From Prevotella sp. (GTDB lineage Bacteria; Bacteroidota; Bacteroidia; Bacteroidales; Bacteroidaceae), in NCBI GenBank assembly GCA_017417465.1, contig JAFPZD010000095.1, positions 1 through 64,000 on the forward strand: DNA of 64,000 nucleotides, read 5' to 3'. This document shows, one piece after another, positions 3,591 to 60,757 of the stretch. Each line of letters opens with the position of its first letter. Positions within the stretch are counted from its first letter, which is position 1. The translations under genes and the position numbers were made by a program. The notes beneath the pieces are model-generated. The model did no database searches. It was given only the letters and a program-made list of their open reading frames with translations, and was not told the origin of the DNA.

Positions 3591-3639
3591 CAATTGTGAA
3601 TTGTGAATTGAGAATTGTGAATTGTGAATTGAGAATTGA
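3571..3639 (+). repeat. Heptamer array AATTGAG/AATTGTG
   Basis: About ten units of AATTGWG, overlapping the last codons and stop of the GH92 gene and ending just before the GH2 start. This is the reverse complement of the array at 1-102. Confidence 0.95.
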
Positions 3640-20428: not shown

Positions 20429-20519
20429 GGAATTGAGAATTGTGAATTGTGAATTGTGCATTGTGAATTGATAATTGTGAATTGATAATTGTGAATTGAT
20501 AATTGTGAATTGTGAATTG
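20429..20519 (+). repeat. Heptamer array AATTGTG/AATTGAT supplying the next start codon
   Basis: About 12 units of AATTGWG/AATTGAT fill the whole gap between the SusC stop and the next gene. The last unit ends in TTG, directly followed by AAG, which is the only start giving a full signal peptide for the downstream GH92. Confidence 0.93.
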
Positions 20520-24929: not shown

Positions 24930-25031
24930 ATTGTGAATTGAGAATTGAGAATTGAGAATTGTGAATTGAGAATTGTGAATTGTGAATTGAAAATTGTGAA
25001 TTGTGAATTGTGAATTGTGAATTGTGAATTG
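24930..25031 (+). repeat. Heptamer array AATTGAG/AATTGTG supplying a start codon
   Basis: About 14 units fill the gap between GH92 and GH130. As at 20519, the final AATTG is directly followed by AAA, so TTG-AAA becomes the likely start of the GH130 gene. Confidence 0.93.
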
Positions 25032-26147: not shown

Positions 26148-26195
26148 GAATTGAGATTTGAGAATTGAGAATTATGAATTGTGAATTGAGAATTA
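26143..26195 (+). repeat. Heptamer array between GH130 and GH31
   Basis: Units AATTGAG, ATTTGAG and AATTGTG begin in the GH130 stop codon and end about 14 bp before the GH31 ATG. Confidence 0.9.
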
Positions 26196-26208: not shown

Positions 26209-28422
26209 ATGAAAAAACTATTCTTGACACTCGTAGCCGCCCTGAGCATCACGGCGGCGTTCGCTCAAGTCGCCACGATGGTGGGCGACCGTGTGGCTGC
26301 TTTCTACCCAAAGGACTTCAATCCTGATATGCACCTGCCGTCACCAATCTTCCTGCGTGAGCTCACCCCGATGGGACAAGTGCCTGCCGACTGGCAGCTT
26401 CGTCCGCAGTTCAGTGTGCAGGATGGTCACAGCGTGGCCACCTTTGACGTGGGTGATGCCGACCTTTATGGCACGGGCGAAGTCTACGGTGACCTGCGTC
26501 GTAACGGCGAGACAGAAGGATTTTGGAACAAGGATAATGGCCTCTATTTGTCCGAAGGTGGCAAGCGTCTCTACCAGACTCACCCCTGGGTGCTTGGCGT
26601 GCGAAAGGATGGTACTGCCTTTGGCCTGATTGCCGACAACACGTGGAAGTCGAAGCTGACCACCGACCGCATCGTGCGCTTTGAGAGCGAAGGCCCTGCC
26701 TTTCGTGTGGTCGTCATCGAGCGCCAGTCACCTGCTGAGGTGCTCTGCGAGCTGGGACGGTTGAGCGGTACCATCGAGATGCCGCCTCTTTGGGCACTGG
26801 GCTACCATCAGTGTCGTCACAGCTACGTGCCCGACACGTGGGCCATGGAGATTGCCGACACGTTCCGTGAGAAGCAGATACCCTGCGATGTCATCTGGCT
26901 CGACATTATCTATATGGACGGCTTCCGCATTTTTACTTTCTCCCCCAAGGAGATGCCCGACCCGAAGCGCTTCAACGACTACTTGCATGAGCGGCACTTC
27001 AAGTCGGTGTTTATGATCGACCCAGGCGTGAAGGTCGACCCTGACTACTTCGTCGACCAGCAGGGCATGGCGGGCGACTACTATGTGAAGACCAAGGACG
27101 GCGAGCCCTTCGTGGGCAGAGTGTGGCCCGGCGACACTCACTTCCCCGACTATATACGTCCTGAGGTGCGCCACTGGTGGAGCACGCTCTATAAAGACTT
27201 CATGGCCACCGGCATCGACGGCATCTGGAACGACATGAACGAGCCATCCGTCTTTGGCGGCCCCGACGGCTCGATGCCCGAGGACAATATGCATGGAACT
27301 GAGAATGATTACACTCAAGCCGACAACTCCGCCAACAACTCTAATCATAATTCTCAATTCTCAAATCTCAATTCTCAATTCTCAACTCTCAATTCTCAAT
27401 TGACCAATTCTCAATTCTCCCACCTCCGTTACCACAACGTCTATGGCTACAACATGGTGAAGGCTTCGCGCGACGGCATCCTGATGGCTAATCCGCAGAA
27501 GCGTCCTTTCGTGCTGTCGCGCTCAAACTTCCTCGGTGGTCAGCGCTATGCTGCCACGTGGACGGGTGACAATGCCTCTACATGGGAACACATGAAGGCC
27601 AGCATCCCCATGACGCTCAATATGGGACTCACAGGACAGCCCTTCAACGGCCCCGACATCGGTGGATTCGCACGCGACTGTAACGCTGAGCTGCTGGCAA
27701 ACTGGACTGCCATCGGCGTCTACTTCCCCTTTGTGCGCAACCACTGCTCGCTTCAGGAAGTGCAACAGGAGCCATGGGCTTTCGGCGAGAAGGTTGAGCA
27801 GGTCTGTCGCACGGCTATCAATCGCCGCTACCGTCTACTGCCCTATGTCTACACGCTCTTCCGCGAGGCTGCGCTCACGGGTATGCCTGTCATGCGGCCT
27901 GTCTTCATGTCCGACCCGAGTAATCCTGCACTCCGCTCGGAGCAACAGGCATTCCTGCTCGGAGGAGACTTGCTGATTGTTCCGAGGTGGGCTGAGAACC
28001 CTGTACTGCCAACGGGCGACTGGAAGACTTTCACCATGGAGCAGGGCGACGACGGCTATCAGGCTCGTCTGGCTCTCCGGCCAGGAGCTGTGCTGCCTGT
28101 TGCCAATCTGTACCAGAACACCGAGGAGTATCGCACCGACTCACTGACGCTGCTCGTCAATATCGATGATAAAGGCTATGCGAAGGGACGGCTCTACGAG
28201 GACGACGGTGAAGGCTTCGGCTACCGTAAAGGCGACTATGCCGACTACAGCATTGTAGCCAAGGCCGAAGGGAAGATGCTTACCGTGTCGTTGCAGCAGG
28301 AGAAAGGACGGCGCGAACAGCAGGCACGTTGGCTCCGCATTGGTCAGTTAGTGGGTGGAAAAGTGATCTACTCCGACTGGCAAAAGGGCACGACCGCCAG
28401 TGTGAAGCTGAAGAAGAGTTAG
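26209..28422 (+). CDS. GH31 alpha-glucosidase
   Basis: 737 residues, signal peptide MKKLFLTLVAALSITAAFAQ. GH31 retaining alpha-glucosidase: Asp342 in GIWNDMNEPSVF is the nucleophile, Asp454 in TWTGDNASTW the acid/base. In a high-mannose N-glycan locus it could remove the glucose caps of immature glycans; starch-like substrates are equally possible. Residues ~378-404 are not GH31 sequence but a translated heptamer array (N-S-Q-F type repeats) between the two catalytic residues. The frame is kept, so the insertion is probably tolerated in a surface loop. Confidence 0.9.
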   Translation: MKKLFLTLVAALSITAAFAQVATMVGDRVAAFYPKDFNPDMHLPSPIFLRELTPMGQVPADWQLRPQFSVQDGHSVATFDVGDADLYGTGEVYGDLRRNGETEGFWNKDNGLYLSEGGKRLYQTHPWVLGVRKDGTAFGLIADNTWKSKLTTDRIVRFESEGPAFRVVVIERQSPAEVLCELGRLSGTIEMPPLWALGYHQCRHSYVPDTWAMEIADTFREKQIPCDVIWLDIIYMDGFRIFTFSPKEMPDPKRFNDYLHERHFKSVFMIDPGVKVDPDYFVDQQGMAGDYYVKTKDGEPFVGRVWPGDTHFPDYIRPEVRHWWSTLYKDFMATGIDGIWNDMNEPSVFGGPDGSMPEDNMHGTENDYTQADNSANNSNHNSQFSNLNSQFSTLNSQLTNSQFSHLRYHNVYGYNMVKASRDGILMANPQKRPFVLSRSNFLGGQRYAATWTGDNASTWEHMKASIPMTLNMGLTGQPFNGPDIGGFARDCNAELLANWTAIGVYFPFVRNHCSLQEVQQEPWAFGEKVEQVCRTAINRRYRLLPYVYTLFREAALTGMPVMRPVFMSDPSNPALRSEQQAFLLGGDLLIVPRWAENPVLPTGDWKTFTMEQGDDGYQARLALRPGAVLPVANLYQNTEEYRTDSLTLLVNIDDKGYAKGRLYEDDGEGFGYRKGDYADYSIVAKAEGKMLTVSLQQEKGRREQQARWLRIGQLVGGKVIYSDWQKGTTASVKLKKS
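27345..27418 (+). repeat. In-frame heptamer array inside GH31
   Basis: About ten units of CTCAATT and variants, in the stop-free orientation, inside the catalytic barrel region between nucleophile and acid/base. Confidence 0.93.
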
Positions 28423-28478: not shown

Positions 28479-28566
28479 GTCTTACCACTTAAGTCGCAAG
28501 TTCTTACCACTTAAGTCGCAAGTTCTTACCACTTAAGTCGCAAGTTCTTACCACTTAAGTCGCAAG
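28479..28566 (+). repeat. 22-bp tandem repeat, four copies
   Basis: Three exact direct copies of a 22-bp unit beginning TTCTTACCACTTAAGTCG (28501-28522, 28523-28544, 28545-28566), preceded by a fourth copy at 28479 differing at its first bases. Each unit contains the palindrome CTTAAG. It lies 57 bp after the GH31 stop, at the end of the locus. The rest of the 28423-28814 gap holds only AT-rich sequence and a -7 promoter element. Confidence 0.93.
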
Positions 28567-31719: not shown

Positions 31720-33816
31720 ATGATGCGTAAGGGTGTAATTGGTAGCGTGCTCGTCGCCGCTGCAGCCGTTGCATGGCTCTGTGTGTCGTGCTATAAGATT
31801 ACGTTTATTAAGCAGGAGCACACGATCATCAAGGGCAATGTGTTCAACGGAAAGATGGTGGTGAAGTCCACCGGTAACACCGCCGGAGGCGTCTACCATG
31901 TCTATGGCCTCTTCGGCATCAGAGTACCAATAGGGTGGGAGGTCGACGGCAAGATCGTGATGACGCAGGTGGCCAAGCCTACCACCGACACGGGCGACCC
32001 CGACTACAACCGTGACATCAAGCGGACGCTGGTGCCATGTCCCGAATACACTGACATGCTCAACCGCGACTATCCGCGCAAGGGCTACACATGGCTCGGC
32101 TATGTCACCGACAGCGATTTCAAGACGTTGCTCAGCGGCGAAGACCCTGACAAGCGTGTCGACAGCATCTACGTCTCCTACGACATCGCTACCAGCTACG
32201 ACCATACGGGCATCTACTACCTCGACTATATCGCTGGCCAGATCGACCACGACAAGCTCGACCAGGTGGCCACCGCCGATCGCGACTGGACGACACGCGT
32301 CGCTACGTTCTCGGGCGACCACATCAACAACGTCTACTTCACTGATACGAGCATCAAGGTGACCAACACCGATGGCACGATGGACGAGTTGGGCGATGAG
32401 CTCTGGGCCATGCCCGAAGAGTGGGAGCTGGAAGCCATGCCCAGCTCAACCTACCAAGGGACGGCGCGTGCCTTCAAAGACCTTAAGTACAACAAGCTCT
32501 TCACCCGTTCGCGCGGCTGGAACGGTGGCGATGGCGTGCTCACCGTAGGCCTGCCCAACGGCGATGTCTTTTGGACGTTCAACGATAGCTTCTATGGTGT
32601 GGTCAACCCAAGCAACCGCTCGCGTGGCAGCTGCAGCTTCCCACGCAACAGCATCATGGTGCAAAAGTGCCGCGACGGCGTGCTTGGCGAGACGCCCGAG
32701 GATTTGGTATGGCTCGCCGACTACGTCAACTGGACGCACGCTAGCGGCGACCGCTATTTCCATGCCCGTACGCACCTGCGCCACCCTGGTGGCGAGAAGA
32801 CCGACGCTGAGATTGCAAAGGGCGATATCGATCAGGGCAAGGTCTACTGGTCGGGCGACGGCACCGTCTACAACGGCAAGCTGCAGATGATTTGGGTGGG
32901 CGTACAGTCGTCTGAGTTGCTCAACCTCGACGCAGCACTGTGTACCTACAGCCTCGAGGGCAACGAGCCTGAGGGCTACTACCTCAGCACCATTCCCGAC
33001 TATCTGCCCCACGAAGGCGACTACCTCTACCGCGAAGACCACACCCCCAACAAGCAGATTGGCCCTTGTGCCTACGGCTCAACCCTCTTCGAGGCTGAGG
33101 ACGGCCATACATACCTCTACGCCGTGGAGAACTCGACCACCGTGGTGGCTCGCACTGCCACGCACGACCTCTACAGCCCGTGGCAATACTACGTCAAGGA
33201 CGCCAGCGGCAATTGGACGTGGCAGGACAACTATCCCACGGAGAACGAGCGTCGCCGCTCAAGCATCATGACGTCGAGCAGCTGGGGCATCATGCTGCCC
33301 TGGGTGTTCAAGCAGGGCGACTGGTACTTCATGACCTCGCAGGCACCCATCTTCTCGCCCGAAGTCTACATTTATCGCTCGAAGTCGCCCTACGGTCCCT
33401 TTGACGACCGCAAGCTGTTGTTCCGCTTGCCCGACCATCTCGACAAGATGGGACCGCAGCAGTACCACTGGCTCTACATGGTCAACCTGCATCCCGCACT
33501 CTCGCGTCAGGGCGAACTGGTGTTCTCGACAAACAGCGATACCGAAGACTTCTGGGATAACTTCAATGCGCTGGGCTCAGCTGATTACTACCGGCCGTTC
33601 TTCTATCGCGTCTTCGACTGGCAGAAGGTCTACGACGACCTTAACACCGAAGGCATCGATGCCCCTCGCAGTTTGCCTCGCCCTACAAGGGCCGCTGACA
33701 ATGCCTACTACGACCTTCAGGGCCGCCGCATGACGCATTCTCCATCCTCAATTCTCAATGCTCAATTAAAGAAAGGTGTCTACGTTCATGCCGGCAAGAA
33801 GGTCGTCGTGAAGTAG
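31720..33816 (+). CDS. Exported DUF4185/DUF5005-like protein with C-terminal sorting-type tail
   Basis: About 698 residues starting MMRKGVIGSVLVAAAAVAW with a lipobox-like CVSC. The central part (GDVFWTFNDSFYG, GEKTDAEIAKGDIDQGKVYW, MTSQAPIFSPEVYIYRSKSP) resembles beta-propeller proteins grouped as DUF4185 or DUF5005; the catalytic role is unknown. It ends in YYDLQGRRM…KKGVYVHAGKKVVVK, a C-terminal tail common in exported Prevotella proteins. That tail is split by SSILNAQL, encoded by a heptamer repeat. An in-frame upstream ATG at 31582 lies inside the esterase gene and is rejected. Confidence 0.7.
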   Translation: MMRKGVIGSVLVAAAAVAWLCVSCYKITFIKQEHTIIKGNVFNGKMVVKSTGNTAGGVYHVYGLFGIRVPIGWEVDGKIVMTQVAKPTTDTGDPDYNRDIKRTLVPCPEYTDMLNRDYPRKGYTWLGYVTDSDFKTLLSGEDPDKRVDSIYVSYDIATSYDHTGIYYLDYIAGQIDHDKLDQVATADRDWTTRVATFSGDHINNVYFTDTSIKVTNTDGTMDELGDELWAMPEEWELEAMPSSTYQGTARAFKDLKYNKLFTRSRGWNGGDGVLTVGLPNGDVFWTFNDSFYGVVNPSNRSRGSCSFPRNSIMVQKCRDGVLGETPEDLVWLADYVNWTHASGDRYFHARTHLRHPGGEKTDAEIAKGDIDQGKVYWSGDGTVYNGKLQMIWVGVQSSELLNLDAALCTYSLEGNEPEGYYLSTIPDYLPHEGDYLYREDHTPNKQIGPCAYGSTLFEAEDGHTYLYAVENSTTVVARTATHDLYSPWQYYVKDASGNWTWQDNYPTENERRRSSIMTSSSWGIMLPWVFKQGDWYFMTSQAPIFSPEVYIYRSKSPYGPFDDRKLLFRLPDHLDKMGPQQYHWLYMVNLHPALSRQGELVFSTNSDTEDFWDNFNALGSADYYRPFFYRVFDWQKVYDDLNTEGIDAPRSLPRPTRAADNAYYDLQGRRMTHSPSSILNAQLKKGVYVHAGKKVVVK
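33736..33767 (+). repeat. Heptamer repeat in the C-terminal tail
   Basis: CTCCATC, CTCAATT, CTCAATG, CTCAATT in frame between the DLQGRRM motif and the KKGVYVHAGKK tail. Confidence 0.85.
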
Positions 33817-33853
33817 TTGAAATGGTGTTGAAACTTTTTTTAAGGCTTATCGC

Positions 33854-33884
33854 TTGCGTAATCCATAAAGATTTCGTATTTTTG
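33854..33884 (+). promoter_or_regulatory. hflX promoter
   Basis: TTG at 33854-33856 and TATTTTTG at 33877-33884 with 20 bp between: a good match to the Bacteroidota promoter. The hflX ATG is 32 bp downstream. Confidence 0.7.
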
Positions 33885-33915
33885 CACGCGATTATTCACC
33901 ATTAACAACTACTGA

Positions 33916-35238
33916 ATGAAAGAATTTGTCATCTCAGAGGCAAAGGCCGAGACGGCCGTGCTGGTGGGACTGATTACGAAAGAGCAAGACGAAGCCAAAA
34001 CAAAAGAGTACCTGGACGAGCTGGAATTCCTCGCCGACACGGCGGGGGCACGCACCGTGAAGCGCTTTACGCAGAGGGTGGGTGGCCCCAGTCAGGTGAC
34101 TTATGTCGGTAGCGGAAAGCTGCAAGAGATTAAGCAATACATCAAGGATTGTCAGGACGCTGCCGACGAGGCTGCCCATAACGCTGAATCCATTCTCAAT
34201 TCTCAATTGTCAACTGACACGCGCGAGCTGCCCCAGCCCGTAGGCATGGTCATCTTCGACGATGAGCTGTCGGCCAAGCAGATTCGAAACATTGAGAAGG
34301 AGCTGCAGGTGAAAATTCTCGACCGCACGTCACTTATCCTCGACATCTTTGCCATGCGTGCCCAGACGGCAGAAGCAAAGGCACAGGTGGAGCTGGCACA
34401 GCACCGCTACATGCTGCCCCGCCTGCAGCGGCTGTGGACGCATTTGGAACGCCAAGGCGGTGGTTCTGGTTCTGGCGGTGGAAAGGGCTCCGTAGGACTT
34501 CGTGGCCCTGGTGAGACGCAGCTGGAGATGGACCGCCGTATCATCCTTCACCGTATCACCCTGCTGAAGCAGCGCTTGGCCGAGATCGACCAGCAGAAGA
34601 CGACGCAACGCAAGAACCGCGGGCGCCTCATTCGTGTGGCCCTTGTAGGCTACACCAACGTGGGCAAGTCGACGCTGATGAACCTGCTGTCGAAGAGCGA
34701 CGTCTTTGCCGAGGATAAGCTGTTTGCCACACTCGACACGACGGTGCGCAAGGTTACCATTGAGAACCTGCCCTTCCTGCTGGCCGACACTGTGGGCTTC
34801 ATCCGTAAACTGCCCTCCGACCTGGTGGAGTCGTTCAAGAGCACCCTCGACGAGGTGCGCGAGGCCGACTTGCTGGTGCATGTGGTGGATATCTCGCACC
34901 CCGGCTTTGAGGAGCAGATACGCGTGGTGGAGCAGACACTGGCCGACCTTGGCTGTCAGGACACGCCGTCGATGATTGTGTTCAACAAGACCGATGCCTA
35001 CACCTGGACACCGAAGGAGCCCGACGACCTGACGCCATCTACCCGCGAGAATGTCTCGCTCGAAGAACTGAAGCGCACGTGGATGGCCAAAATGCACGAC
35101 GACTGCATTTTTATTTCTGCCCGCCAGCGGGACAATATCGATGAGCTTCGGACGTTATTATATAATAAGGTACGCGAACTCCATGTGCAAAAGTACCCGT
35201 ATAACGACTTCCTCTATCCAGTAGTCGAAGCTGAGTAG
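33916..35238 (+). CDS. hflX: GTPase HflX
   Basis: 440 residues. HflX binds ribosomes and rescues or splits stalled ones. The N-terminal HflX domain has VGSGKLQEI (64-72) and IFDDELSAKQIRNIEK; a Gly-rich linker at 181-195 is followed by GPGETQLEMDRR. The G domain has G1 GYTNVGKST (245-253), switch II DTVGFIRKLP and NKTD. Residues ~91-99 (ESILNSQLS) come from a heptamer repeat inside the N-terminal domain, just before the IFDDEL block. The gene has its own promoter. Confidence 0.95.
   Translation: MKEFVISEAKAETAVLVGLITKEQDEAKTKEYLDELEFLADTAGARTVKRFTQRVGGPSQVTYVGSGKLQEIKQYIKDCQDAADEAAHNAESILNSQLSTDTRELPQPVGMVIFDDELSAKQIRNIEKELQVKILDRTSLILDIFAMRAQTAEAKAQVELAQHRYMLPRLQRLWTHLERQGGGSGSGGGKGSVGLRGPGETQLEMDRRIILHRITLLKQRLAEIDQQKTTQRKNRGRLIRVALVGYTNVGKSTLMNLLSKSDVFAEDKLFATLDTTVRKVTIENLPFLLADTVGFIRKLPSDLVESFKSTLDEVREADLLVHVVDISHPGFEEQIRVVEQTLADLGCQDTPSMIVFNKTDAYTWTPKEPDDLTPSTRENVSLEELKRTWMAKMHDDCIFISARQRDNIDELRTLLYNKVRELHVQKYPYNDFLYPVVEAE
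34190..34214 (+). repeat. Heptamer repeat inside hflX
   Basis: CTCAATT twice with flanking degenerate copies, in frame, in the linker of the HflX N-terminal domain. It is the same unit as at 1-102. Confidence 0.85.
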
Positions 35239-35239
35239 A

Positions 35240-35319
35240 AGAGGAGTAATTGAGGAGTTAGGGGGAGTAAATTGAGGAGTTAGGGGGAGTTAAAGGGGAG
35301 TTAGGGGGAGTTAAAGGGA
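35240..35319 (+). repeat. Left array of S23 cassette 1 (GGAGTTAGGG/GGAGTTAAAGG)
   Basis: About seven G-rich units beginning directly after the hflX stop. A higher-order unit is GGAGTTAGGGGGAGTTAAAG. The same sequence occurs inverted on the other side of the S23 gene (35770-35876). Confidence 0.92.
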
Positions 35320-35353
35320 CGGCAGTTTCAAAGAATATAAACGTAACGATAAT

Positions 35354-35731
35354 ATGGGAACATATAGCTTTGAGGACGTTTTAGCGTGGCAAAAAGCGCA
35401 TGCTTTTGTGCTATATGTCTATGAGGTAACCCGCTCTTTTCCTGAGGATGAGCGTTTCGGACTGACGTCCCAGTTCCGCCGGGCGGCAGTTTCGATTGAG
35501 GCAAACATTGCTGAAGGCTATAAGAAATTAAGCAAACAGGACAAGTTGCGGTTCCTGAATATTGCCCAGGGAAGTCTGGAGGAATGTCGCGACTATCTCT
35601 TGCTTGCCCATGATTTGGGCTATTATGGAGCGGATGTGTTCGCACAACTGCACCAAAAAATTGAGAATGCGAGTATGTTTTTAAATTCATATTGCAAAGG
35701 AATCATCAATAACAGCGGTATCAAGGATTAG
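35354..35731 (+). CDS. Four-helix-bundle protein, S23/IVP family (cassette 1)
   Basis: 125 residues, all predicted helical. FEDVLAWQKAHAF and FRRAAVSIEANIAEGY (NIAEG at 51-55) are the family signature. S23-type proteins were first noted in insertions in 23S rRNA genes, and related proteins (Avd) occur in diversity-generating retroelements; their general function is unknown. The gene lies alone between two inverted tandem-repeat arrays, inserted between hflX and the DUF4954 gene. A second, diverged copy is at 37890. Confidence 0.88.
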   Translation: MGTYSFEDVLAWQKAHAFVLYVYEVTRSFPEDERFGLTSQFRRAAVSIEANIAEGYKKLSKQDKLRFLNIAQGSLEECRDYLLLAHDLGYYGADVFAQLHQKIENASMFLNSYCKGIINNSGIKD

Positions 35732-35769
35732 AATACTTGAGGAATGCTTGTGGAAACGTATATTCTATC

Positions 35770-35876
35770 GTCCCCTAACTCCCCCTAACTCCCCTTAACT
35801 CCCCCAAACAACTCCCGAAAAAACTATCGTCCCCTAACTCCCCTTAACTCCTCCTAACTCCCCTTAACTCCCCCAA
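35770..35876 (+). repeat. Right array of S23 cassette 1, inverted (CCCCTAACTCC/CCCTTAACTCC)
   Basis: About eight C-rich units, the reverse complement of the left array, ending 18 bp before the DUF4954 start. Within it, CTATCGTCCCCTAACTCCCC occurs twice as a direct repeat. Confidence 0.92.
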
Positions 35877-35893
35877 AAAACACCCACACAATT

Positions 35894-37747
35894 ATGAGAG
35901 AATACAGACAACTGAGAGAAGATGAAATCCAGATCCTCGAGGCCAACGTATGCTGGGCCGAAGACTGGTCGCGCGTAAAAGTCGCCGAAACGTTCATACC
36001 CTATAACTTCCACCGCGTGATGTTCTATGGCGACATCCGCCTGGGATCGTTCGACAAACAGGTAGAGGTGGCCAAGGGCTTCGTGAAGCACTCGGGCATC
36101 AACGATGCCACGCTGCGCAATGTCTCCGTCGGCAACGACTGCCTCATCGAGAAGGTGGGCAACTTCATCAACAACTACACCATCGGCGACGACTGCTACA
36201 TCTCGAACATCTCGACGATGGAGACCCTCGAGGGGGCCAGCTACGGTGCCGGTTCCACCATCTCCGTGCTCAACGAGATGGGCGATGGCAACGTCACCCT
36301 CTTCCGCGAGCTGAACTCGCAGCTGGCAGCCTTTATGGTGAAGTACAACCGCGACAAAGCTCTGACAGCACGCCTCCAGCAACTCATCGACGACGAGGTG
36401 CGCGTGTCGATGCCCGAGCGTGGCACCATCGGCAACCGTGTGAAGATTGTCAACACCAAGGACATCACCAACACCGTCATCAAGGGCGACTGCGAGATCA
36501 ACGGCGCTGCCCGCCTGGCCGACTGCACCATCCTGAGCTCTGAGGACGCCAGCGTCTACATCGGCACGGGCGTCATCTGCGAGAACTCGATCATCTGCGA
36601 TGGCTGCTCCATCAACAACTCCGTGAAGATGCAGGACTGCTTCGTGGGCGAGGCCTGTCAGATTACCAATGGCTTCACGGCCGAGGCCAGCCTCTTCTTT
36701 GCCAACTCGTTCATGGCCAATGGCGAGGCCTGTGCCGCCTTCTGCGGCCCCTTCTCGGCCAGCCACCACAAGTCGAGCCTGCTCATCGGTGGGCAGTTCT
36801 CGTTCTACAATGCTGGCTCGAACACCAACTTCTCGAACCACGCCTACAAGATGGGACCGCTGCACTACGGCACCCTGGAGCGTGGCTCGAAGACGGCCTC
36901 GGGCAGCTACGTGCTCATGCCTGCCACCATCGGCGCCTTCTCCGTCTGTATGGGTAAGCTGATGCACCATCCCGACACCCGCAACCTGCCGTTCTCCTAC
37001 CTCATAGCCTATGGCGACACGATGTACCTCGTGCCTGGTCGTAACATCACCACCGTCGGCCTCTACCGCGACATCAAGAAGTGGCCCAAGCGTGACAAGC
37101 GTTCGAAGCAGTCGAAGAAGTCGATTATCAACTTCGACTGGCTGTCGCCCTTCACCGTAGGCGAGATTATCGAGGGCATCAAGGTGCTGAAGGACCTGCG
37201 CAACGCCTCCGGCGAGAATGTGACGACCTACAACTTCCACGAGTATGTCATCAACAACTCATCGCTCGTCAAAGGCTTGAAGTACTACGACATCGCCCTG
37301 CGCATCTATATGGGCGCCGTGCTGAAGCGTGCCCAGAAGGAGGGCTTCTTCGGCGTGCCTGACTCCGAGGTGGGCAAAGGTCCCTGGTGCGACCTCTCCG
37401 GCCTCCTGCTCCCTGAGAGCGAGGAGCAGCGGCTGCTCAACGATATCAAGGACGGCACCATCGAGAACATCCAGCAGGTGCTGGCCCGCTTTGAGGAAAT
37501 CAACGACTGCTACAGCGACTACCGCTGGGCATGGTCCTACCAGCTCATCCTCGACTACTACCACCTCGATGAGCTCGACGAACAGGCCTGTGAGCGCATC
37601 CGCGAGGACTATGTCCGTGCCCGCCGTGCCTGGATTGCCGAGATCCGCAAGGACGCCGAGAAGGAGTTCCAGCAGGGCGACGTCGACCAGGAGACGCTCG
37701 ACAGCTTCCTCGAGCAGCTCGACCACGAGGTAGACTACGAAAACTGA
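35894..37747 (+). CDS. DUF4954 family protein
   Basis: 617 residues, no signal peptide. The middle part shows the hexapeptide rhythm of a left-handed beta helix (NVSVGNDCLIEKVGNFINN, YTIGDDCYISNIS, CFVGEACQITNGFTAEASLF), as in nucleotide-sugar acyl- or uridylyltransferase-like proteins. The C-terminus is helical and acidic. DUF4954 proteins are common in Bacteroidota; the reaction is not known to me. The gene is bracketed by the two S23 cassettes. Confidence 0.85.
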   Translation: MREYRQLREDEIQILEANVCWAEDWSRVKVAETFIPYNFHRVMFYGDIRLGSFDKQVEVAKGFVKHSGINDATLRNVSVGNDCLIEKVGNFINNYTIGDDCYISNISTMETLEGASYGAGSTISVLNEMGDGNVTLFRELNSQLAAFMVKYNRDKALTARLQQLIDDEVRVSMPERGTIGNRVKIVNTKDITNTVIKGDCEINGAARLADCTILSSEDASVYIGTGVICENSIICDGCSINNSVKMQDCFVGEACQITNGFTAEASLFFANSFMANGEACAAFCGPFSASHHKSSLLIGGQFSFYNAGSNTNFSNHAYKMGPLHYGTLERGSKTASGSYVLMPATIGAFSVCMGKLMHHPDTRNLPFSYLIAYGDTMYLVPGRNITTVGLYRDIKKWPKRDKRSKQSKKSIINFDWLSPFTVGEIIEGIKVLKDLRNASGENVTTYNFHEYVINNSSLVKGLKYYDIALRIYMGAVLKRAQKEGFFGVPDSEVGKGPWCDLSGLLLPESEEQRLLNDIKDGTIENIQQVLARFEEINDCYSDYRWAWSYQLILDYYHLDELDEQACERIREDYVRARRAWIAEIRKDAEKEFQQGDVDQETLDSFLEQLDHEVDYEN

Positions 37748-37750
37748 TTT

Positions 37751-37834
37751 AAAGGTAAAAAAGTAAAAAGGTAAAAAAGTAAAAAGGTAAAAAAGTAAAA
37801 AGGTAAAAAAGTAAAAAGGTAAAAAAGTAAAAAG
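37751..37834 (+). repeat. Left array of S23 cassette 2 (octamer GTAAAAAR)
   Basis: About ten octamers alternating GTAAAAAG and GTAAAAAA, starting directly after the DUF4954 stop. The reverse complement forms the array at 38281-38318 on the other side of the S23 gene. Confidence 0.94.
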
Positions 37835-37889
37835 TGGATGAGTGAAAAGGTAAAAGAGCAGTAGATTAAAAAGGATATTGACAATTCTA

Positions 37890-38240
37890 ATGAGTGACAG
37901 TGTTATATATAAACTCAGTAAACTGTTTGCGTTGCGGATAATTAAACTGTATAATTACCTACGCGAAGAGCAACAGGAATATGTTATGTCGAAACAAATA
38001 TACAGAAGTGGGACAAGCATCGGTGCCAATATTGCTGAAAGTATATTTGCCCAAAGCGATGCCGACTACGTTAACAAGCTGAAAATATCCCTGAAAGAAG
38101 CCAGTGAAACCCGCTATTGGCTGGAGCTGCTTTTCGAAGCGGGTACTATTTCAGAGGAGGCATACGCCTCAATGCTCAATGATGTTAATACAATTATCGG
38201 TACAACAATAAACATTATAAACAAAAAGATGAATTCATGA
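37890..38240 (+). CDS. Four-helix-bundle protein, S23/IVP family (cassette 2)
   Basis: 116 residues from ATG 37890 (a TTG at 37878 is the alternative). YRSGTSIGANIAESIFAQS and LKISLKEASETRYWLELL match the S23 signature (NIAES at 47-51) but differ strongly from the copy at 35354. Its stop codon overlaps the ATG of the M16 peptidase gene. It is flanked by inverted octamer arrays, the right one lying inside the next gene. Confidence 0.87.
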   Translation: MSDSVIYKLSKLFALRIIKLYNYLREEQQEYVMSKQIYRSGTSIGANIAESIFAQSDADYVNKLKISLKEASETRYWLELLFEAGTISEEAYASMLNDVNTIIGTTINIINKKMNS

Positions 38241-41206
38241 AACAGAAAGAGTTTAATGTGAAACGGGTAAGAAACAATTATTTTTTACTTTTTTACCTTT
38301 TTACTTTTTTACTTTTAGTTGCTTCCTGTGGCGGCAAGTACAAGTATGAAACCGTAAAGGGCGACCAGACGAAGACGCGTATCTACACGCTGAAGAACGG
38401 TCTGAAGGTCTACCTCAGTGTGAACAAGGAAGAGCCTCGCATCCAGACGTTTATTGCCGTGCGTACTGGCTCGAAGAACGACCCCGCCGAGACCACCGGT
38501 CTGGCCCACTACCTGGAGCACCTGATGTTCAAGGGCACCGACAAGTTCGGCGTCACTGATGCGGCTGCCGAGGCACCACTGCTCGACCAGATTGAGCAGC
38601 AGTACGAGCACTACCGCACCCTCACCGATCCCGCCGAGCGCCGTCAGGCCTACGCCGTCATCGACTCGCTGAGCCAGGAGGCTGCCAAGTACTTCATCCC
38701 CAACGAGTACGACAAGCTGATGTCGGTCATCGGTGCTGAGGGCACCAACGCCTACACCTCCGAGGACGTCACCTGCTACACCGAGGACATCCCTTCGAAC
38801 GAGGTTGAGAACTGGGCGAAGATCCAGTCGGACCGCTTCCAGAACATGGTCATCCGTGGCTTCCACACCGAGCTGGAGGCCGTCTACGAGGAGTACAACA
38901 TCCACCTGACCAGCGACATCGACAAGGTGTTTGTTGCCCTCTCTGCCAAGCTGTTCCCCACGCACCCCTACGGCACGCAGACCACCATCGGTACCCAGGA
39001 GCACCTGAAGAACCCCTCGATCACCAACATCAAGAACTACTTCCGCAAGTGGTATGTGCCTAACAACGTGGCCATCTGCATGTCGGGCGACATGAACCCC
39101 GACGAGGTCATCGCCACCATCGACAAGTACTTCGGCGCTTGGCAGCCCGCCCTCGACGAGCAGGGCAACCAGCTGGCTTCCGTGCCACAGCCCACGTTCC
39201 CCGAGCAGCCTGAGATTACCGCGCCCATCGACACCACCGTCGTTGGCCTCGAGGCTGAAAACCTGTGGATGGGCTGGCGCTTCGACAGCGGCAACTCCTT
39301 GCAGATCGACACCCTGCAGGTCATCGAGTCGATGCTGAGCAACGGCACCGCCGGCCTGCTCGACCTCGACATCAACCAGCAGATGAAGATGCTGAGCTCC
39401 ATGGGCGGCGTCATGCCCCAGATGGACTATTCGCTGTTCCTCATGTCGGGTACACCACGCGAGGGACAGAGCCTCGACGAGGTGCGCACGCTGCTGCTCG
39501 CCGAGCTCGACAAACTGAAGAATGGCGACTTCAGCGACGACCTGCTGCCATCGGTCATCAACAACATGAAGCTGCACTACTACAACCAGCTCGAGAGCAA
39601 CGAGAGCCGCGCCAGCATGTTTGTCACCGCCTTCATCAACGACACACCCTGGCAGCAGGAGGTCACCGCACTCGACCGCATCGAGAAAATCACGAAGGAC
39701 GAGATTGTGGCCTTTGCCAACCGCCACTTCAACGACAACTACGTGACCGTCTTCAAGCGGCAGGGCGTCGACACCACGCAGAAGAAGATCGACAAGCCGC
39801 AGATTACGCCCATCCCCACCAACCGCGACCTTGTCAGCGACTTCGTCAAGGCTATTCAGGAGACCGAGGTGAAGCCTATCGAGCCGCGCTTCGTCGACTT
39901 CAAGAAGGACCTCGCCTTCGGCACCATCGGCGCCAATGCCCAGCTGCCCTACATCTACGTCAAGAACCAGGAGAACGGGCGCTTCCAGATGGCCCTGCGC
40001 TACGACTTCGGTGAGGAGAGCGACGTGCGCTACACCTATGCCGCCGACTATCTCGACTACCTCGGCACCGACTCACTCACGCCCGAGCAGCTCAAGCAGC
40101 AGTTCTACAAGCTCGCCTGCTCCTACTCCGTCGTCGTCATGCCGCGCAGCATCTCAGTCACCCTCAATGGCCTGGGCGAGAACATGCCACAGGCACTCGC
40201 ACTGCTCGACAACCTGCTGCAGAACGCTAAGGTCGACACCATGGCTTGGATGCAGTACTGCGCACTCACGGCCAAGCAGCGTGCCGACAGCAAGGCCGAC
40301 CAGCGCACCAACTTCAACTACCTCTACAACTACGGTCTCTACGGCCCTTACAATCCCTACCGCAACCAGCTGAGCGATGCTGAGCTCGCACAGACCAATC
40401 CCCAGGACCTGCTCGACCTGCTGAAAGGCCTTGCCCAGTATGAGCATACCATCCTCTATTACGGCCCGATGAGTGAGCGTGAGCTGGCCGACGCCATCAC
40501 CAAGGCGCATAAGGTCGGCGCAGAGCTGCAGAAAGCACCCGAGGGACGCAACTACGTCCTGCAGGAAACGCCTGAGAACGAGGTGCTGCTGGCTCCCTTC
40601 GATGCCAAGAACATCTACATGCGCATGATCCACAACGAGCAGCGCCCGTGGAATGCCGACGAGGCACCGCTCCACGCCCTCTTCAACGAGTACTTCGGTG
40701 GCGGCATGAACACCATCGTCTTCCAGGAGCTGCGCGAGGCCCGTGGCCTGGCCTACAACGCCTTTGCTGCCTACGTCGACCCGCAGTACAAGGACCAGCC
40801 CGAGTACTTCTTCACGCACATCATCACCCAGAACGACAAGATGATGGACTGCGTGCGCCAGTTCCACGTCATCCTCGACACCATCCCGCAGAGCGAGAAC
40901 GCCTTCAACATTGCCAAGGAGGCACTCACCAAGCGCCTCGCAAGCCAGCGTAACACCAAGTTCGGGCTTATCAACTCCTGGCTCGTCGCTCAGCAGCGTG
41001 GCATCGACTACGACATCAACGAGCGCATCTACAACGCGTTGCCGCACCTTACGCTCAAGGACATCGTCGACTTCGAGCAGCAGCTCATGGCGCACAAGGC
41101 CTATCGCTACGTCATCCTCGGCGACGAGCGCGACCTCGACCTGGCCGCCCTCCAGCAGTACGGCCCCATCAAGCGTCTCTCCACGCAGGAGATATTTGGC
41201 TATTGA
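38237..41206 (+). CDS. M16 family zinc metallopeptidase lipoprotein
   Basis: 989 residues. Inverse zincin motif HYLEH at 91-95 in TGLAHYLEHLMFKG, with Glu94 as catalytic residue and His91/His95 as ligands; the third ligand lies in ELEAVYEEYN. A second M16-like half follows, as in the pitrilysin/insulinase type. It is predicted to be a periplasmic or surface lipoprotein (LLLVASCGG). The hydrophobic core of the signal peptide, YFLLFYLFTFLLL, is encoded by the octamer array TTTTTTAC. The start codon overlaps the stop of the S23 gene, so the first ~28 residues appear to come from the S23 cassette. Confidence 0.92.
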   Translation: MKQKEFNVKRVRNNYFLLFYLFTFLLLVASCGGKYKYETVKGDQTKTRIYTLKNGLKVYLSVNKEEPRIQTFIAVRTGSKNDPAETTGLAHYLEHLMFKGTDKFGVTDAAAEAPLLDQIEQQYEHYRTLTDPAERRQAYAVIDSLSQEAAKYFIPNEYDKLMSVIGAEGTNAYTSEDVTCYTEDIPSNEVENWAKIQSDRFQNMVIRGFHTELEAVYEEYNIHLTSDIDKVFVALSAKLFPTHPYGTQTTIGTQEHLKNPSITNIKNYFRKWYVPNNVAICMSGDMNPDEVIATIDKYFGAWQPALDEQGNQLASVPQPTFPEQPEITAPIDTTVVGLEAENLWMGWRFDSGNSLQIDTLQVIESMLSNGTAGLLDLDINQQMKMLSSMGGVMPQMDYSLFLMSGTPREGQSLDEVRTLLLAELDKLKNGDFSDDLLPSVINNMKLHYYNQLESNESRASMFVTAFINDTPWQQEVTALDRIEKITKDEIVAFANRHFNDNYVTVFKRQGVDTTQKKIDKPQITPIPTNRDLVSDFVKAIQETEVKPIEPRFVDFKKDLAFGTIGANAQLPYIYVKNQENGRFQMALRYDFGEESDVRYTYAADYLDYLGTDSLTPEQLKQQFYKLACSYSVVVMPRSISVTLNGLGENMPQALALLDNLLQNAKVDTMAWMQYCALTAKQRADSKADQRTNFNYLYNYGLYGPYNPYRNQLSDAELAQTNPQDLLDLLKGLAQYEHTILYYGPMSERELADAITKAHKVGAELQKAPEGRNYVLQETPENEVLLAPFDAKNIYMRMIHNEQRPWNADEAPLHALFNEYFGGGMNTIVFQELREARGLAYNAFAAYVDPQYKDQPEYFFTHIITQNDKMMDCVRQFHVILDTIPQSENAFNIAKEALTKRLASQRNTKFGLINSWLVAQQRGIDYDINERIYNALPHLTLKDIVDFEQQLMAHKAYRYVILGDERDLDLAALQQYGPIKRLSTQEIFGY
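38281..38318 (+). repeat. Right array of S23 cassette 2, inside a signal peptide
   Basis: TTTTTTAC, TTTTTTAC, CTTTTTAC, TTTTTTAC, TTTTAG: the inverted counterpart of the GTAAAAAR array, read in frame as the h-region of the M16 lipoprotein signal. Confidence 0.92.
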
Positions 41207-41238
41207 GGTAGAAGTTAAAAATACCTTGGTATTGTTTT

Positions 41239-41342
41239 GAAAGAAATCAGCAACAATTAGAAAGAATAATATCCAACAATGAGAAATAATATTTCTTCTA
41301 ATTTCTGGATGTAATTCTTTCTAATTGTTGCCTATTTCTTTC
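41239..41342. repeat. Large inverted repeat (37-bp arms)
   Basis: Arms 41239-41275 and 41306-41342 pair almost completely (blocks GAAAGAAAT, CAACAATTAGAAAGAAT and ATCCA). It may be a transcription stop after the M16 gene or a small non-autonomous element. Confidence 0.8.
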
Positions 41343-41398
41343 ATTGAACATCGCACCAAGTTATTTTTTAAGTAGATGAACACAATTTTTTTATAAAA

Positions 41399-41468
41399 AA
41401 CAACGAATTAAACGAATTAAACGAATTACAATGCGCAACAATTCGTTTAATTCGTCAAATTCGTTGTT
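41399..41468. repeat. Second inverted repeat (29-bp arms) built on ACGAATTAA
   Basis: Arms 41399-41427 and 41440-41468 differ at two positions. The left arm itself is a tandem repeat of the nonamer ACGAATTAA. It lies 69 bp before the GH31 gene. Apart from this and the hairpin at 41239, the 41207-41536 gap shows no gene. Confidence 0.85.
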
Positions 41469-41536
41469 GGAAAAAGGATAATTTGTATAAACTAAATTTG
41501 AATAGTTACTTATCATAACTGAATCCACTAACCTGT

Positions 41537-44440
41537 ATGAAACACTCCTTCTTCCTACTCCTGGCAGCGAGTTTGCTTGCAGCTTGCACCTCAGCTCCCG
41601 TAGAGCGTACGGACCGCGGCGTCATCGTGCGCCTCGCTCCTGAGTCCACGAACCAGACGCGCCAGGTGCGTGTCGAGGTGCTCGGCGAGAAACTCATCCA
41701 CGTCTCTGCCACGCCCGAGAAAAGCTTCTCCTCGAAGCAGAGCCTCGTCGTGCTGCCCGTCAGCGCGACGACAGCCTTCACCGTTGACGAGCGCGACGAC
41801 TCGGTGCTGGTGCGTACCGCAAAGGTGACGGCGGCTGTGAGCCGTCAGACCGGCGAGGTGCGGTTCCACGATGCCGCCGGCCAGCTCATCCTCGCTGAGG
41901 ACAGCGCCGGACGCTCGTTCGCTCCCATCGAGGTGGAGGGCACCCGTGCCTACAGCGTGCGCCAGGTGTTCCAGTCGGCTGCCGATGACGAGGGCTACTA
42001 TGGCCTGGGTCAGCATCAGGCCGACGAGTTCAACTACAAGGGCAAGAACGAGGAGCTGTTTCAGTACAACACGAAGGTGTCCGTGCCGTTCATCGTCTCG
42101 ACACGGGGCTATGGCATCCTGTGGGACAGCTATTCCCTGTGCCGTTTCGGCCATCCCGACGCCTACGTTCAGTTAGGCGACGTGTTCCGTCTCTACGACA
42201 AAGAGGGTAGGGAAGGGGCCCTGACGGGTACCTACCAGCCCGCCGACAACACGAAGGAGCCGCTGGTGCGGCGCGAGGACTCGCTCTACTTCGAGCACTA
42301 CGACCGTGCCACCAACTTCGCAACCGTCGTCAACCTGCCCGACTTCCCCTTTGCGGGGAGCCACGTCAGCTACGAGGGCGCCATCGAGCCGAAGCAGGAC
42401 GGACAGTACCACTTCATACTCTACTATGCTGGCTACATGAAGGTGTGGCTCGGCGGACAACTGGTGGTGCCCGAGCGCTGGCGTGCCGCATGGAACCCCA
42501 ACAGCTATAAGTTCACGGCCGACCTGAAGGCTGGCGAGCGCGTGCCCCTGAAGATCGAGTGGCTGCCCGATGGCGGCACCTCGTTCTGTGGGCTGCGCGT
42601 GCTCACGCCAAGGTCTGCAGATGAGTGTCGGAAGATGTCGTGGTGGAGCGAGATGCAGCCGCAGCTGGACTACTACTTCGTCGCTGGCGACTCGATGGAC
42701 GAGGTTGTCAGTGGCTACCGCACGCTCACGGGCAAGGCACCCATCATGCCGAAGTGGGCCATGGGCTTCTGGCAGAGCCGCGAGCGCTACAAGACGCAGG
42801 ACGAGCTGCTGGCTACGCTCGGCGAGTTCCGCCAGCGCAACATCCCCATCGACAACATCGTGCTCGACTGGTTCTATTGGCCTGAGACACAGTGGGGAAG
42901 CCATGAGTTCGACGCTGACCGCTTCCCCAGCCCCAAGGCGATGGTCGACAGCGTCCACAAGCTGAATGCGCACCTGATGATTTCCGTGTGGCCGAAGTTC
43001 TATGCCGCCACCGAGCACTTCAAGGAGTTCGATGCAAAGGGATGGATGTACCGCCAGGCCGTCGTCGACAGCATCCGCGACTGGGTGGGACCGGGCTACG
43101 TCGGCTCGTTCTACGATGCCTATAGTGCCGACGCCCGCCAGCTCTTCTGGAACCAGATTGCCGAGCACCTCTACCCGCTGGGCATCGATGCCTGGTGGAT
43201 GGACGCCAGCGAGCCTAACGTGAAGGACTGCACCGACCTGGAGTACCGCAAGATGCTGTGTGGACCGACGGCGCTCGGACCGTCAACGCAGTATTTCAAC
43301 ACTTACGCCCTGATGAACGCTCAGGCCATCTACGAGGGGCAGCGCACTACGCAACCTGAAGGTGAGGCGCGCGTGTTCCTGCTGACGCGCTCGGGCTTCG
43401 CTGGCCTGCAGCGCTATTCCACGGCAACATGGAGTGGCGACATAGGCACCCGCTGGGAGGATATGAAGGCGCAGATCTCGGCCGGCCTGAACTTCGCCGT
43501 CAGCGGCATTCCCTACTGGACGATGGACATTGGCGGCTTCTCGGTCGAGGGGCGCTACTATGGTGCGCAGGAGGCCTACAACCGCACGGGGCAGGAGAAT
43601 GCCGACCTGCGGGAGTGGCGCGAGCTGCAGGCACGCTGGTATCAGTTTGGAGCCTTCTGCCCGCTCTACCGTGCCCACGGTCAGTATCCCTTCCGCGAAG
43701 TCTTTAACATCGCGCCTGAGCAGCATCCCGCCTACCAGTCGATTGTCTACTACACCAAGCTGCGCTACCGCCTGATGCCTTACATCTACTCGCTGGCTGG
43801 CATGACATGGACCGACGACTACACCATCATGCGACCGCTGGTGATGGACTTCACCGCCGACCATCAGGTCTACGACATCGGCGACCAGTTCATGTTCGGA
43901 CCCGCGCTGATGGTGTCGCCCGTCTATGTCTACGGTGCGCGCAACCGTGAGGTCTATTTCCCTGCCGACAGCGGCTGGTACGACTTCTACACGGGCCGTT
44001 ATGTTCCCGGAGGCCAGCGCCTCTCCGTCGCTGCTCCCTACGAGCGCCTACCGCTCTATGTGCGCGAGGGAAGCATCCTCCCCGTAGGCCCCGACATGCA
44101 GTACAGCAACGAGAAGCCGGCGTCAGAGCTGACCCTTTATGTCTACACGGGTCGCAACGCTCACTTCACGCTCTACGAGGACGAGGGCACCAACTACAAT
44201 TACGAGCGCGGCCAGTATGCCACCATCCCCATGACCTACGACGAGCAGCAGGGCACCCTCACCATCGGCGCTCGCAACGGCTCCTTCCCCGGCATGCTGC
44301 AAACACGCACCTTCAACGTCATCTTCGTCGGTAAGCGCAACCCCGTCCCCTTCGCTTCGGACGCCGCCGCCACTGGTGCCGCCTCGTCTACCGTTGTCAC
44401 CTACGACGGCAGCCCCCTCACCGTTTCGGCAAAAGAGTAG
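41537..44440 (+). CDS. GH31 enzyme with PA14 insertion, alpha-xylosidase-like lipoprotein
   Basis: 967 residues, lipoprotein signal MKHSFFLLLAASLLAAC. A PA14-like domain (~274-358; GAIEPKQDGQYHFILYYAGY, then FTADLKAGERVPLKIEW) interrupts the N-terminal part, as in several alpha-xylosidases that act on xyloglucan. Asp556 in WWMDASEPNV is the nucleophile and Asp635 in TWSGDIGTRW the acid/base. Alpha-xylosidase is the best guess; alpha-glucosidase remains possible. It is not clearly part of the mannan locus. Confidence 0.88.
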   Translation: MKHSFFLLLAASLLAACTSAPVERTDRGVIVRLAPESTNQTRQVRVEVLGEKLIHVSATPEKSFSSKQSLVVLPVSATTAFTVDERDDSVLVRTAKVTAAVSRQTGEVRFHDAAGQLILAEDSAGRSFAPIEVEGTRAYSVRQVFQSAADDEGYYGLGQHQADEFNYKGKNEELFQYNTKVSVPFIVSTRGYGILWDSYSLCRFGHPDAYVQLGDVFRLYDKEGREGALTGTYQPADNTKEPLVRREDSLYFEHYDRATNFATVVNLPDFPFAGSHVSYEGAIEPKQDGQYHFILYYAGYMKVWLGGQLVVPERWRAAWNPNSYKFTADLKAGERVPLKIEWLPDGGTSFCGLRVLTPRSADECRKMSWWSEMQPQLDYYFVAGDSMDEVVSGYRTLTGKAPIMPKWAMGFWQSRERYKTQDELLATLGEFRQRNIPIDNIVLDWFYWPETQWGSHEFDADRFPSPKAMVDSVHKLNAHLMISVWPKFYAATEHFKEFDAKGWMYRQAVVDSIRDWVGPGYVGSFYDAYSADARQLFWNQIAEHLYPLGIDAWWMDASEPNVKDCTDLEYRKMLCGPTALGPSTQYFNTYALMNAQAIYEGQRTTQPEGEARVFLLTRSGFAGLQRYSTATWSGDIGTRWEDMKAQISAGLNFAVSGIPYWTMDIGGFSVEGRYYGAQEAYNRTGQENADLREWRELQARWYQFGAFCPLYRAHGQYPFREVFNIAPEQHPAYQSIVYYTKLRYRLMPYIYSLAGMTWTDDYTIMRPLVMDFTADHQVYDIGDQFMFGPALMVSPVYVYGARNREVYFPADSGWYDFYTGRYVPGGQRLSVAAPYERLPLYVREGSILPVGPDMQYSNEKPASELTLYVYTGRNAHFTLYEDEGTNYNYERGQYATIPMTYDEQQGTLTIGARNGSFPGMLQTRTFNVIFVGKRNPVPFASDAAATGAASSTVVTYDGSPLTVSAKE

Positions 44441-46360: not shown

Positions 46361-46509
46361 ACCGTGTTCAACCGTGTAGAACCGTGGCTCATCTTTCATC
46401 TTTCATTTTTCATCTTTAATCTTAATTAAGACCGTGTTCAACCGTGTAGAACCGTGGCTCATCTTTCATCTTAATTAAGACCGTGTTCAAACCGTGTAGA
46501 ACCGTGGCT
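46361..46509. repeat. Three ~29-bp repeats of ACCGTGNNNN decamers mixed with TTCATCT heptamers
   Basis: Copies at 46361-46389, 46431-46459 and 46480-46509 each hold three decamers starting ACCGTG. Between them lie TTCATCT/TTCATTT heptamers, the reverse complement of the array at 1192-1245. Confidence 0.9.
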
Positions 46510-48561: not shown

Positions 48562-48730
48562 CCTCTCCGAGCAGTCCGCCACACATCTCCGAGCAGTCCG
48601 CCACACTTCTCCGAGTAGTCCGCCACACATCTCCGAGAGGACTGCCACTCCACTCCGAGCAGTCCCCCACACTTCTCCGAGCAGTCCCCCATTTCCCTCC
48701 TGCGAATGTGCTGGATTCCTCCGAGCGGCC
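48562..48730. repeat. ~21-bp repeat array (CTCCGAGCAGTC-CGCCACAC)
   Basis: About eight imperfect copies of CTCCGAGCAGTCCGCCACAC. It follows the nucleotidyltransferase remnant. A related array is translated inside the GH38 gene (882-946). The gap 48542-49091 holds this array, two copies of the TGCAATATT palindrome and a promoter. Confidence 0.85.
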
Positions 48731-60706: not shown

Positions 60707-60748
60707 AGTGAAGCGTGAAAAGTGAAGAGTGAAAAGTGAAGAATGAAA
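60707..60748 (+). repeat. Heptamer array NGTGAAR
   Basis: Six tandem units (AGTGAAG, CGTGAAA, AGTGAAG, AGTGAAA, AGTGAAG, AATGAAA) directly after the fasciclin stop and reaching the SusC start region. Confidence 0.9.
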
Positions 60749-60757
60749 ACTAAAAGT

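Follow-up and report, generated by a model that had tools for sequence, protein, structure and literature searches.

What two genes of the S23 family, a protein family named only for its location in rRNA, are doing between protein-coding genes is the question raised by a stretch of Prevotella sp. DNA (assembly GCA_017417465.1, contig JAFPZD010000095.1, positions 1-64,000 of the forward strand), hereinafter the window. Each gene is enclosed by an array of short tandem repeats and the inverted version of the same array, and the two resulting cassettes, A and B, lie outside any rRNA gene, with the genes for HflX, a DUF4954 protein and an M16 peptidase as their neighbours; Rfam gives no rRNA match over window positions 33000-42000, and the six weak Rfam matches in the window, all under the gathering scores of their families, were discounted. 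An earlier interpretation made from the letters alone (the sequence-only reading) described both cassettes and proposed that they are mobile. The architecture is confirmed by open reading frames (ORFs), Tandem Repeats Finder (TRF) and inverted-repeat scores, and the proposed mobility is supported by empty sites at both window positions. The location of S23 genes between inverted arrays is a real, general observation, and we consider it probable, if by no means assured, that each S23 gene and its two arms constitute one small mobile element that lands between co-directional genes, with the S23 protein as a putative binder of the arms.

The arrangement was quantified by scoring the inverted-repeat pairing of the 250-300 bp upstream of a gene with an equal length downstream, and a locus was counted as bracketed at a score of 16 or more. 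Over 7,296 sliding positions of the window's genome, S23 places included, the median score is 9 and the 99th percentile 13.5; cassettes A and B score 31.0 and 33.5, and the S23 loci of this genome (L001-L010, with one stop codon in the S23 frame of L010) score 25.5 to 51.5. Nine independent places in ~457 kb score 20 or more, namely, six S23 cassettes and three repeats of other kinds. In S23-masked controls (four sets, 1,214 kb), nine independent places reach 16 and three reach 20, so that such arrays are not equally common around S23 genes and elsewhere, a comparison that the sequence-only reading had suggested. A stricter control, in which the left arm of one locus was paired with the right arm of another (leaving out the short L104), gave medians of 8 to 9 versus 15 to 30.5 within loci. 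The 99th percentile of the cross-pairs was exceeded by the own arm pairs of all 10 loci in the window's genome (90 cross-pairs), 27 of 43 in the genus and order, 12 of 30 in the phylum, 27 of 62 among named Bacteroidota loci (Ignavibacteria and Balneolaceae-type records counted with them) and 9 of 15 outside Bacteroidota.

All 10 full-length-type S23 loci of the window's genome score at least 16, as do 53 of the 57 scored in the same genus (3 of 60, at contig ends, were left out), 27/43 in the genus and order, 12/30 and 31/62 in two Bacteroidota sets (40-50%), 8/15 in other phyla, 7/11 on cyanobacterial plasmids and 27/36 on IMG/VR contigs. The inverted-array signal fades away from the genus yet persists. 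S23 genes without matched arrays, which the sequence-only reading had named as a result that would count against it, are a minority near the window, but 50-60% of the wider Bacteroidota sample score below 16. These loci are the best matches of longer lists (at most 30 per genome search, the best 80 of 580, and 11 of 29 plasmid records), and the sets overlap (for example, L145 = L003, L175 = L008 and L171 = L046); the tally omits short loci from four sets (3, 1, 2 and 1) and, from IMG/VR, for which it drew on all 41 loci, 4 that are identical. By their record titles, the eight positives from other phyla are Opitutae, Desulfuromonadales, Betaproteobacteria, a delta proteobacterium, Clostridia, Parcubacteria, Desulfosarcina and Acidobacteria, most records from other phyla being contigs of metagenome-assembled genomes, for which mis-binning is possible. 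The sole archaeal locus scored (Methanophagales, L267) reached 14.5, over the 95% cross-pair line of its group, 12.0, and below the 99% line, ~15.5. In the window's genome, 12 of 15 PF05635 matches pass the Pfam cut-off, and the ten counted as full-length-type leave out two of these, the truncated copy L011 (score 9.0) and L012 (8.0), a member of a longer family. This longer family (~240-330 aa; L012-L015, L062-L064) matches PF05635 weakly, has no inverted arms (scores 6.5-9.0) and stands apart from the present observation; other short repeats occur near L013-L015. A tblastn search with S23a, the protein of cassette A, against 50,697 phage records (E 1e-5) gave no match, and Rfam gave nothing up to E 0.1 on eight cyanobacterial loci.

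The arms have a common construction. Left arms scoring 15 or more were used for the lag analysis: outside the genus, self-match at a lag of 7 is 0.58-0.72 and is present also at 14, most other lags being near 0.25, and a lag of 8 gives the best match within the genus. The arms align over median lengths of 28 to 37 nt, which amounts to four to five units, and 121 of 133 loci have more G than C on the left arm (50/56, 32/36, 8/9, 8/8 and 23/24 by set). Among 56 heptameric left arms selected by a score of 15 or more and a lag-7 self-match of 0.5, AG is the most phase-conserved dinucleotide in 34, ties counted, and occupies one phase in at least 60% of the units in 40; the profile of these 40 AG-phased loci is N-A-G followed by four loose positions. 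Arm similarity tracks S23 identity (Spearman 0.529 for left and 0.521 for right arms in 1,338 different-site pairs from 54 genus loci; 0 of 2,000 permutations), and where a site is shared, an arm matches its own partner better than the partner of any relative in 24 of 33 cases. TGTATAAT-like arrays accompany all of three Flavobacteriales S23 genes that are 80-82% identical in nucleotides and located at different sites. The arms are part of the element and go with the S23 gene from site to site. The two diverged S23 genes of the window do have different units, as the sequence-only reading maintained, but these look unrelated because each follows its own S23 lineage.

Relatives of the window have precise empty sites, the mark of a mobile element. 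Thirty loci were read at each position, the window's own included: between hflX and the DUF4954 gene, 2 are filled, 25 are empty and 3 are not comparable, and between the DUF4954 and M16 genes, 2 are filled, 26 are without S23 and 2 are without a recognised M16 gene. The positions are, accordingly, not fixed, the alternative that the sequence-only reading had wished to see checked. In L067, the filled relative at the hflX-DUF4954 site, S23 is 71% identical and the unit is changed in both arms. On cyanobacterial plasmids, empty sites were found at ~98% identity for an insert of 428 bp, at 92-95% for an insert of 417 bp at another site, and at 91-93% for two further sites. Two of the plasmid cassettes, L326 and L333, lie within CRISPR operons (cas10-cmr3 and cas6-cas4); the cassette between cas10 and cmr3 of Picosynechococcus PCC 7003 is absent in PCC 7002. 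The elements measure ~410-510 bp on these plasmids and, in the window, ~570-640 bp. The S23 inserts have ambiguous junctions at plasmid sites 1, 4 and 5, of which site 1 may have a duplication of 3-4 bp; these junctions are unlike those of the Nostoc miniatures described below. In L339, inspection by eye shows a left array that is kept next to a broken S23 start; this decayed copy is the one case seen of how a solo array can arise, and the remaining solo arrays and S23-less inverted pairs may likewise derive from S23 elements.

S23 and both of its neighbours have the same strand in 51 of 57 loci of the genus versus 42% of 267 baseline triples, and in 50 of 61 named loci versus 55% of 287, neighbours being called by a longest-ORF heuristic; the count covers 61 of the 80 named loci, and loci of one site are not independent. 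Among 14 S23 pairs picked for similarity, dN/dS is 0.03-0.19 in 11, the other three being saturated. The S23 protein is conserved by purifying selection and therefore matters to whatever keeps the element.

The same heptamers occur in smaller insertions. On three Nostoc plasmids, they form S23-less pairs, eight by our reading, all in the plus-then-minus order seen around S23, and solo heptamer arrays are also present. A 182-bp miniature with these heptamers interrupts the S23 gene of L327 (1400-2100), the flanks of which otherwise match an intact gene, and for a second miniature, 220 bp long, there are empty sites at 96-98% identity. Neither of them shows a target duplication, each lies directly beside ATAAAG, and sequences related to the two are found in 29 and 34 plasmid records. 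Elements of the IS200/IS605 type insert without target duplication next to a fixed oligonucleotide, and the insertion pattern of the miniatures resembles theirs.

How such an element might work can be outlined as follows. Its ends are two mutually inverted arrays with a short unit (7 nt in most of the phyla sampled and, in the genus, often 8), and the G-rich strand usually lies to the left when S23 is read forward. The element lands between co-directional genes, typically after the stop of one and before the start of the next, and is oriented like the host transcript. The S23 family forms a homopentamer toroid (PMC4990558), and both solved entries, 2gsc and 2rld, contain five chains. The pentamer most likely binds the arrays at both ends, perhaps with one unit per subunit, although the match of five subunits to four to five heptamers is suggestive only, and such binding would keep the two ends together so that the element could move or be maintained. 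In the element itself, neither a nuclease nor a polymerase was recognised, hence movement must use an enzyme supplied in trans, for which a host enzyme or an IS200/IS605-type transposase is a candidate. The intervening sequences of 23S rRNA that carry S23 are probably of the same nature and would go back to insertions of such elements into rRNA genes. A broader formulation, which we hold only tentatively, is that all these loci represent one ancient minimal class of mobile elements present in many bacterial phyla and perhaps in archaea, in which the pentamer reads about five in-phase heptamers per end, the arms, decayed copies and miniatures are a main source of heptameric arrays in cyanobacteria and other bacteria, and the 23S rRNA intervening sequences mark one particular place of insertion. 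Its odds are lowered because few inverted pairs are published in Nostoc and Beggiatoaceae and the archaeal locus scored only 14.5.

Several observations weigh against a mobile S23 element. Beyond the genus, 16/43, 18/30, 31/62, 7/15, 4/11 and 9/36 loci score under 16, and some S23 genes have no matched arrays (for example, L048, L061, L106 and L134); loci at one site and near-identical pairs such as L173/L174 and L187/L188 are not independent events. L210, one of the three Flavobacteriales loci, has similar arrays in one direction on both sides, its downstream side ending with the contig, and L004 is no simple case inasmuch as its flanks share a direct repeat that is stronger than the inverted one (78.5 versus 27.0). 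L087-L090, which are empty at the hflX-DUF4954 site, carry solo arrays of other units, and S23-less heptamer pairs occur on the Nostoc plasmids, so that the arrays are not exclusive to S23; the S23 inserts on plasmids share neither the exact ends nor the target of the Nostoc miniatures. The lack of a moving enzyme within the element belongs here as well, as does the resemblance of the right arm of cassette B to the signal-peptide array of the M16 gene in L078, L079 and L084, relatives without S23b, the S23 gene of that cassette.

The arms might also act at the RNA level, as parts of an intervening sequence: they would pair in the polycistronic transcript, the S23 frame would be looped out or cut by RNase III with the neighbours unharmed, and pairing would be selected on RNA. 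This is a serious possibility, if not the likelier one. The insertions follow the orientation of the transcript, the RNA of cassette A folds with both arms in one long stem (z -8.3 on 20 shuffles), the partner arms at shared sites fit each other best in the 24 of 33 cases mentioned above, and S23-bearing intervening sequences of 23S rRNA have complementary borders and are cleaved by RNase III (PMC4990558). If selection acted on the sense RNA alone, however, an excess of G.U over A.C mismatches would be expected, and in 94 arm duplexes (loci scoring at least 16, with eight duplicates or near-duplicates left out) there are 101 G.U and 118 A.C mismatches (p 0.28). RNA-only selection on the arms is unsupported by this test, and we rank RNA pairing second because the mismatches show no G.U preference. 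That the cassettes are instead passengers mobilised in trans by a single-strand transposase of the IS200/IS605 type, which would recognise their hairpin ends, appears rather doubtful. In its favour, the two Nostoc miniatures that carry these heptamer arms but no S23 inserted beside ATAAAG and did not duplicate the target, and two matches to Y1_Tnp (PF01797) exist elsewhere in the window's genome; these, however, lie on contigs C91 and C15 and not in the cassettes, which encode no Y1 transposase, and such transposases are so widespread (5 of 14 control genomes) that their presence is weak evidence. The other junctions of the S23 inserts at plasmid sites 1, 4 and 5, and the possible 3-4 bp duplication at site 1, also argue against it.

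A different role altogether would be that of a resident operon regulator, not a selfish gene, with the S23 ring binding repeats in its own mRNA and the arrays serving as regulatory sites, in the manner of TRAP, a ring protein that binds repeats in mRNA. The phase-conserved AG units on the sense strand, the purifying selection on S23 and the position within operon-like gene runs are all compatible with regulation, but the patchy presence with many empty sites, the ~30 different neighbour-gene pairs (a count from the heuristic ORF call) and the fact that the arrays are inverted and not one-sided make it improbable. Finally, solo short-period arrays are numerous in the window's genome, so that ordinary simple repeats made by slippage could in principle lie next to S23 genes by coincidence; the control scans and cross-pairing contradict this, and, with the arm sequence tied to the S23 lineage, we give coincidence almost no credence. 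The mobile element, with S23 as its putative arm-binding protein, remains the reading we prefer.

The features of the two cassettes and their neighbours are listed in the table.

Table. Cassettes A and B of the window and the adjoining genes
Feature	Positions	Strand	Description
hflX	33916..35238	+	ORF; Pfam GTP-bdg_N, GTP-bdg_M, MMR_HSR1; upstream neighbour of cassette A; stop 35236-35238
Cassette A left arm	35239..35319	+	G-rich array of GGAGTTAGGGGGAGTTAAAGG-like units; TRF rows; inverted-repeat score 31.0
S23a gene	35354..35731	+	125 aa; four-helix-bundle 23S_rRNA_IVP family; PF05635 E 1.1e-36
Cassette A right arm	35772..35874	-	left-arm array inverted, CCCCTAACTCC-like; TRF; pairs with left arm
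DUF4954/DUF6819 gene	35894..37747	+	PF16314 E 1.8e-163; separates cassettes A and B
Cassette B left arm	37751..37855	+	AAAGGTAAAAAAGTAA array after DUF4954 stop; TRF 100% matches over 37751-37834
S23b gene	37878..38240	+	PF05635 E 3.9e-27; listed from TTG, ATG at 37890
Cassette B right arm	38281..38316	-	inverted array; TRF; inverted-repeat score 33.5
M16 peptidase gene	38237..41206	+	PF05193, PF00675; downstream neighbour of cassette B

S23a also matches the structure 2gsc (E 1.3e-18). The array unit of cassette B is GGTAAAAAAGTAAAAA, and the stop codon of S23b overlaps the M16 start codon; the right arm of this cassette is coding, within the signal-peptide part of the M16 ORF. The statement of the sequence-only reading that the cassettes are inserted exactly between genes holds, therefore, for the intergenic cassette A and fails for the right arm of cassette B. 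Both in the window and in the relatives L078, L079 and L084, which lack S23b, a (TTTTTACC)-like array codes for the M16 signal peptide; because the peptide is array-encoded even in these relatives, the array has become coding sequence.

Other repeats are scattered over the window. At 41402-41470, 9-mer arrays (AACGAATTA and its complement) form an inverted pair without S23 and lie close together in the manner of a miniature hairpin, and solo arrays of ~7-nt period without S23 are located, mostly at gene boundaries, at 1-103, 1190-1264, 3570-3639, 20430-20519, 24930-25037, 26140-26194 and 60705-60757. A heptamer array at 27349-27419 lies inside a long ORF (26209-28422) and leaves the frame unbroken. 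Arrays of a 22-bp unit occupy 28480-28566, with four perfect copies, and 48564-48691; ACCGTGT/AACCGTG repeats are present at 46361-46509 and also in L017 (10180-10760), where they form a strong palindrome without S23. GC-rich REP-like palindromic repeats (CTCCTTGGGGAGGGC-like and similar) were seen between and inside genes in L018 (761-1720) and L022 (15780-16220).

These results give a genomic context to the S23 family, and in the open-licence literature (preprints outside it, few subscription journals) we found no report of S23 genes between protein genes with inverted arrays. They also call for caution: two papers place the S23 family among CRISPR-linked or immunity-linked domains, and an S23 gene beside CRISPR or operon genes need not be a functional partner, given that the cas10-cmr3 cassette is absent in another strain of the genus.

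Cyanobacteria are known to contain heptameric intergenic repeats, the STRRs. Published heptamers include TAACTGA (PMC4679880) and the GGGAATC of Xanthomonas and GGGGA(C/T)T of Nostoc (PMC4692102), and they are similar to the arms described here in having a period of 7, a mostly intergenic location and a scattered distribution over Cyanobacteria, Bacteroidetes and Gammaproteobacteria. Two xanthomonads have 70 and 75 convergent pairs of GGGAATC arrays (PMC4692102). Against a connection, the TAACTGA sets of the Beggiatoaceae genome almost all run in one direction as direct repeats, a single case being inverted (PMC4679880), the 'Ana' GGGGA(C/T)T repeats of the Nostoc PCC 7120 type are paired in a few instances only, none of them on its plasmids, and in general the authors saw no association with insertion sequences (PMC4692102). 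The term 'S23' does not occur in the text of PMC4679880 or PMC4692102, where these repeats have hitherto had no attached protein, and the present observations tie S23 to them; with the comparison made through published descriptions, this is a lead and not a proven match.

Among other known systems, miniatures derived from IS200/IS605 are approached by the two Nostoc miniatures, with the same arms, no target duplication and a position beside ATAAAG, whereas the S23 cassettes encode a conserved protein and have other junctions. Eukaryotic foldback elements have terminal inverted repeats made of short tandem units, and there the likeness is one of end architecture, compared without a sequence relation. 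BrickBuilt of Porphyromonas is, similarly, a small intergenic repeat-bearing element of a Bacteroidales species, but it differs in its internal 23-nt direct repeats and short non-array terminal repeats, and 'S23' has 0 occurrences in the available text (PMC4596501). Avd of diversity-generating retroelements is a relative: homology with PF05635 has been suggested (PMC10053308), and PF22296 (bAvd) matches S23a at 30.1 bits, under its 40-bit cut-off; unlike the Avd systems, the five window ORFs scanned with Pfam contain no reverse transcriptase domain. The closest parallel is provided by the 23S rRNA intervening sequences, the S23 frames of which are known selfish elements (PMC4990558). Like the window cassettes, these consist of a single frame for an S23-family protein between complementary ends, are patchily distributed and are called selfish, and the sizes are alike, with 428 nt in Coxiella (PMC4990558) and 428 and 417 bp for the plasmid inserts. 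In contrast to them, the elements described here sit between protein genes, twice inside cas operons of plasmids (L326 and L333), have short-period arrays as their ends and encode an S23 protein that is under purifying selection and is not decaying.

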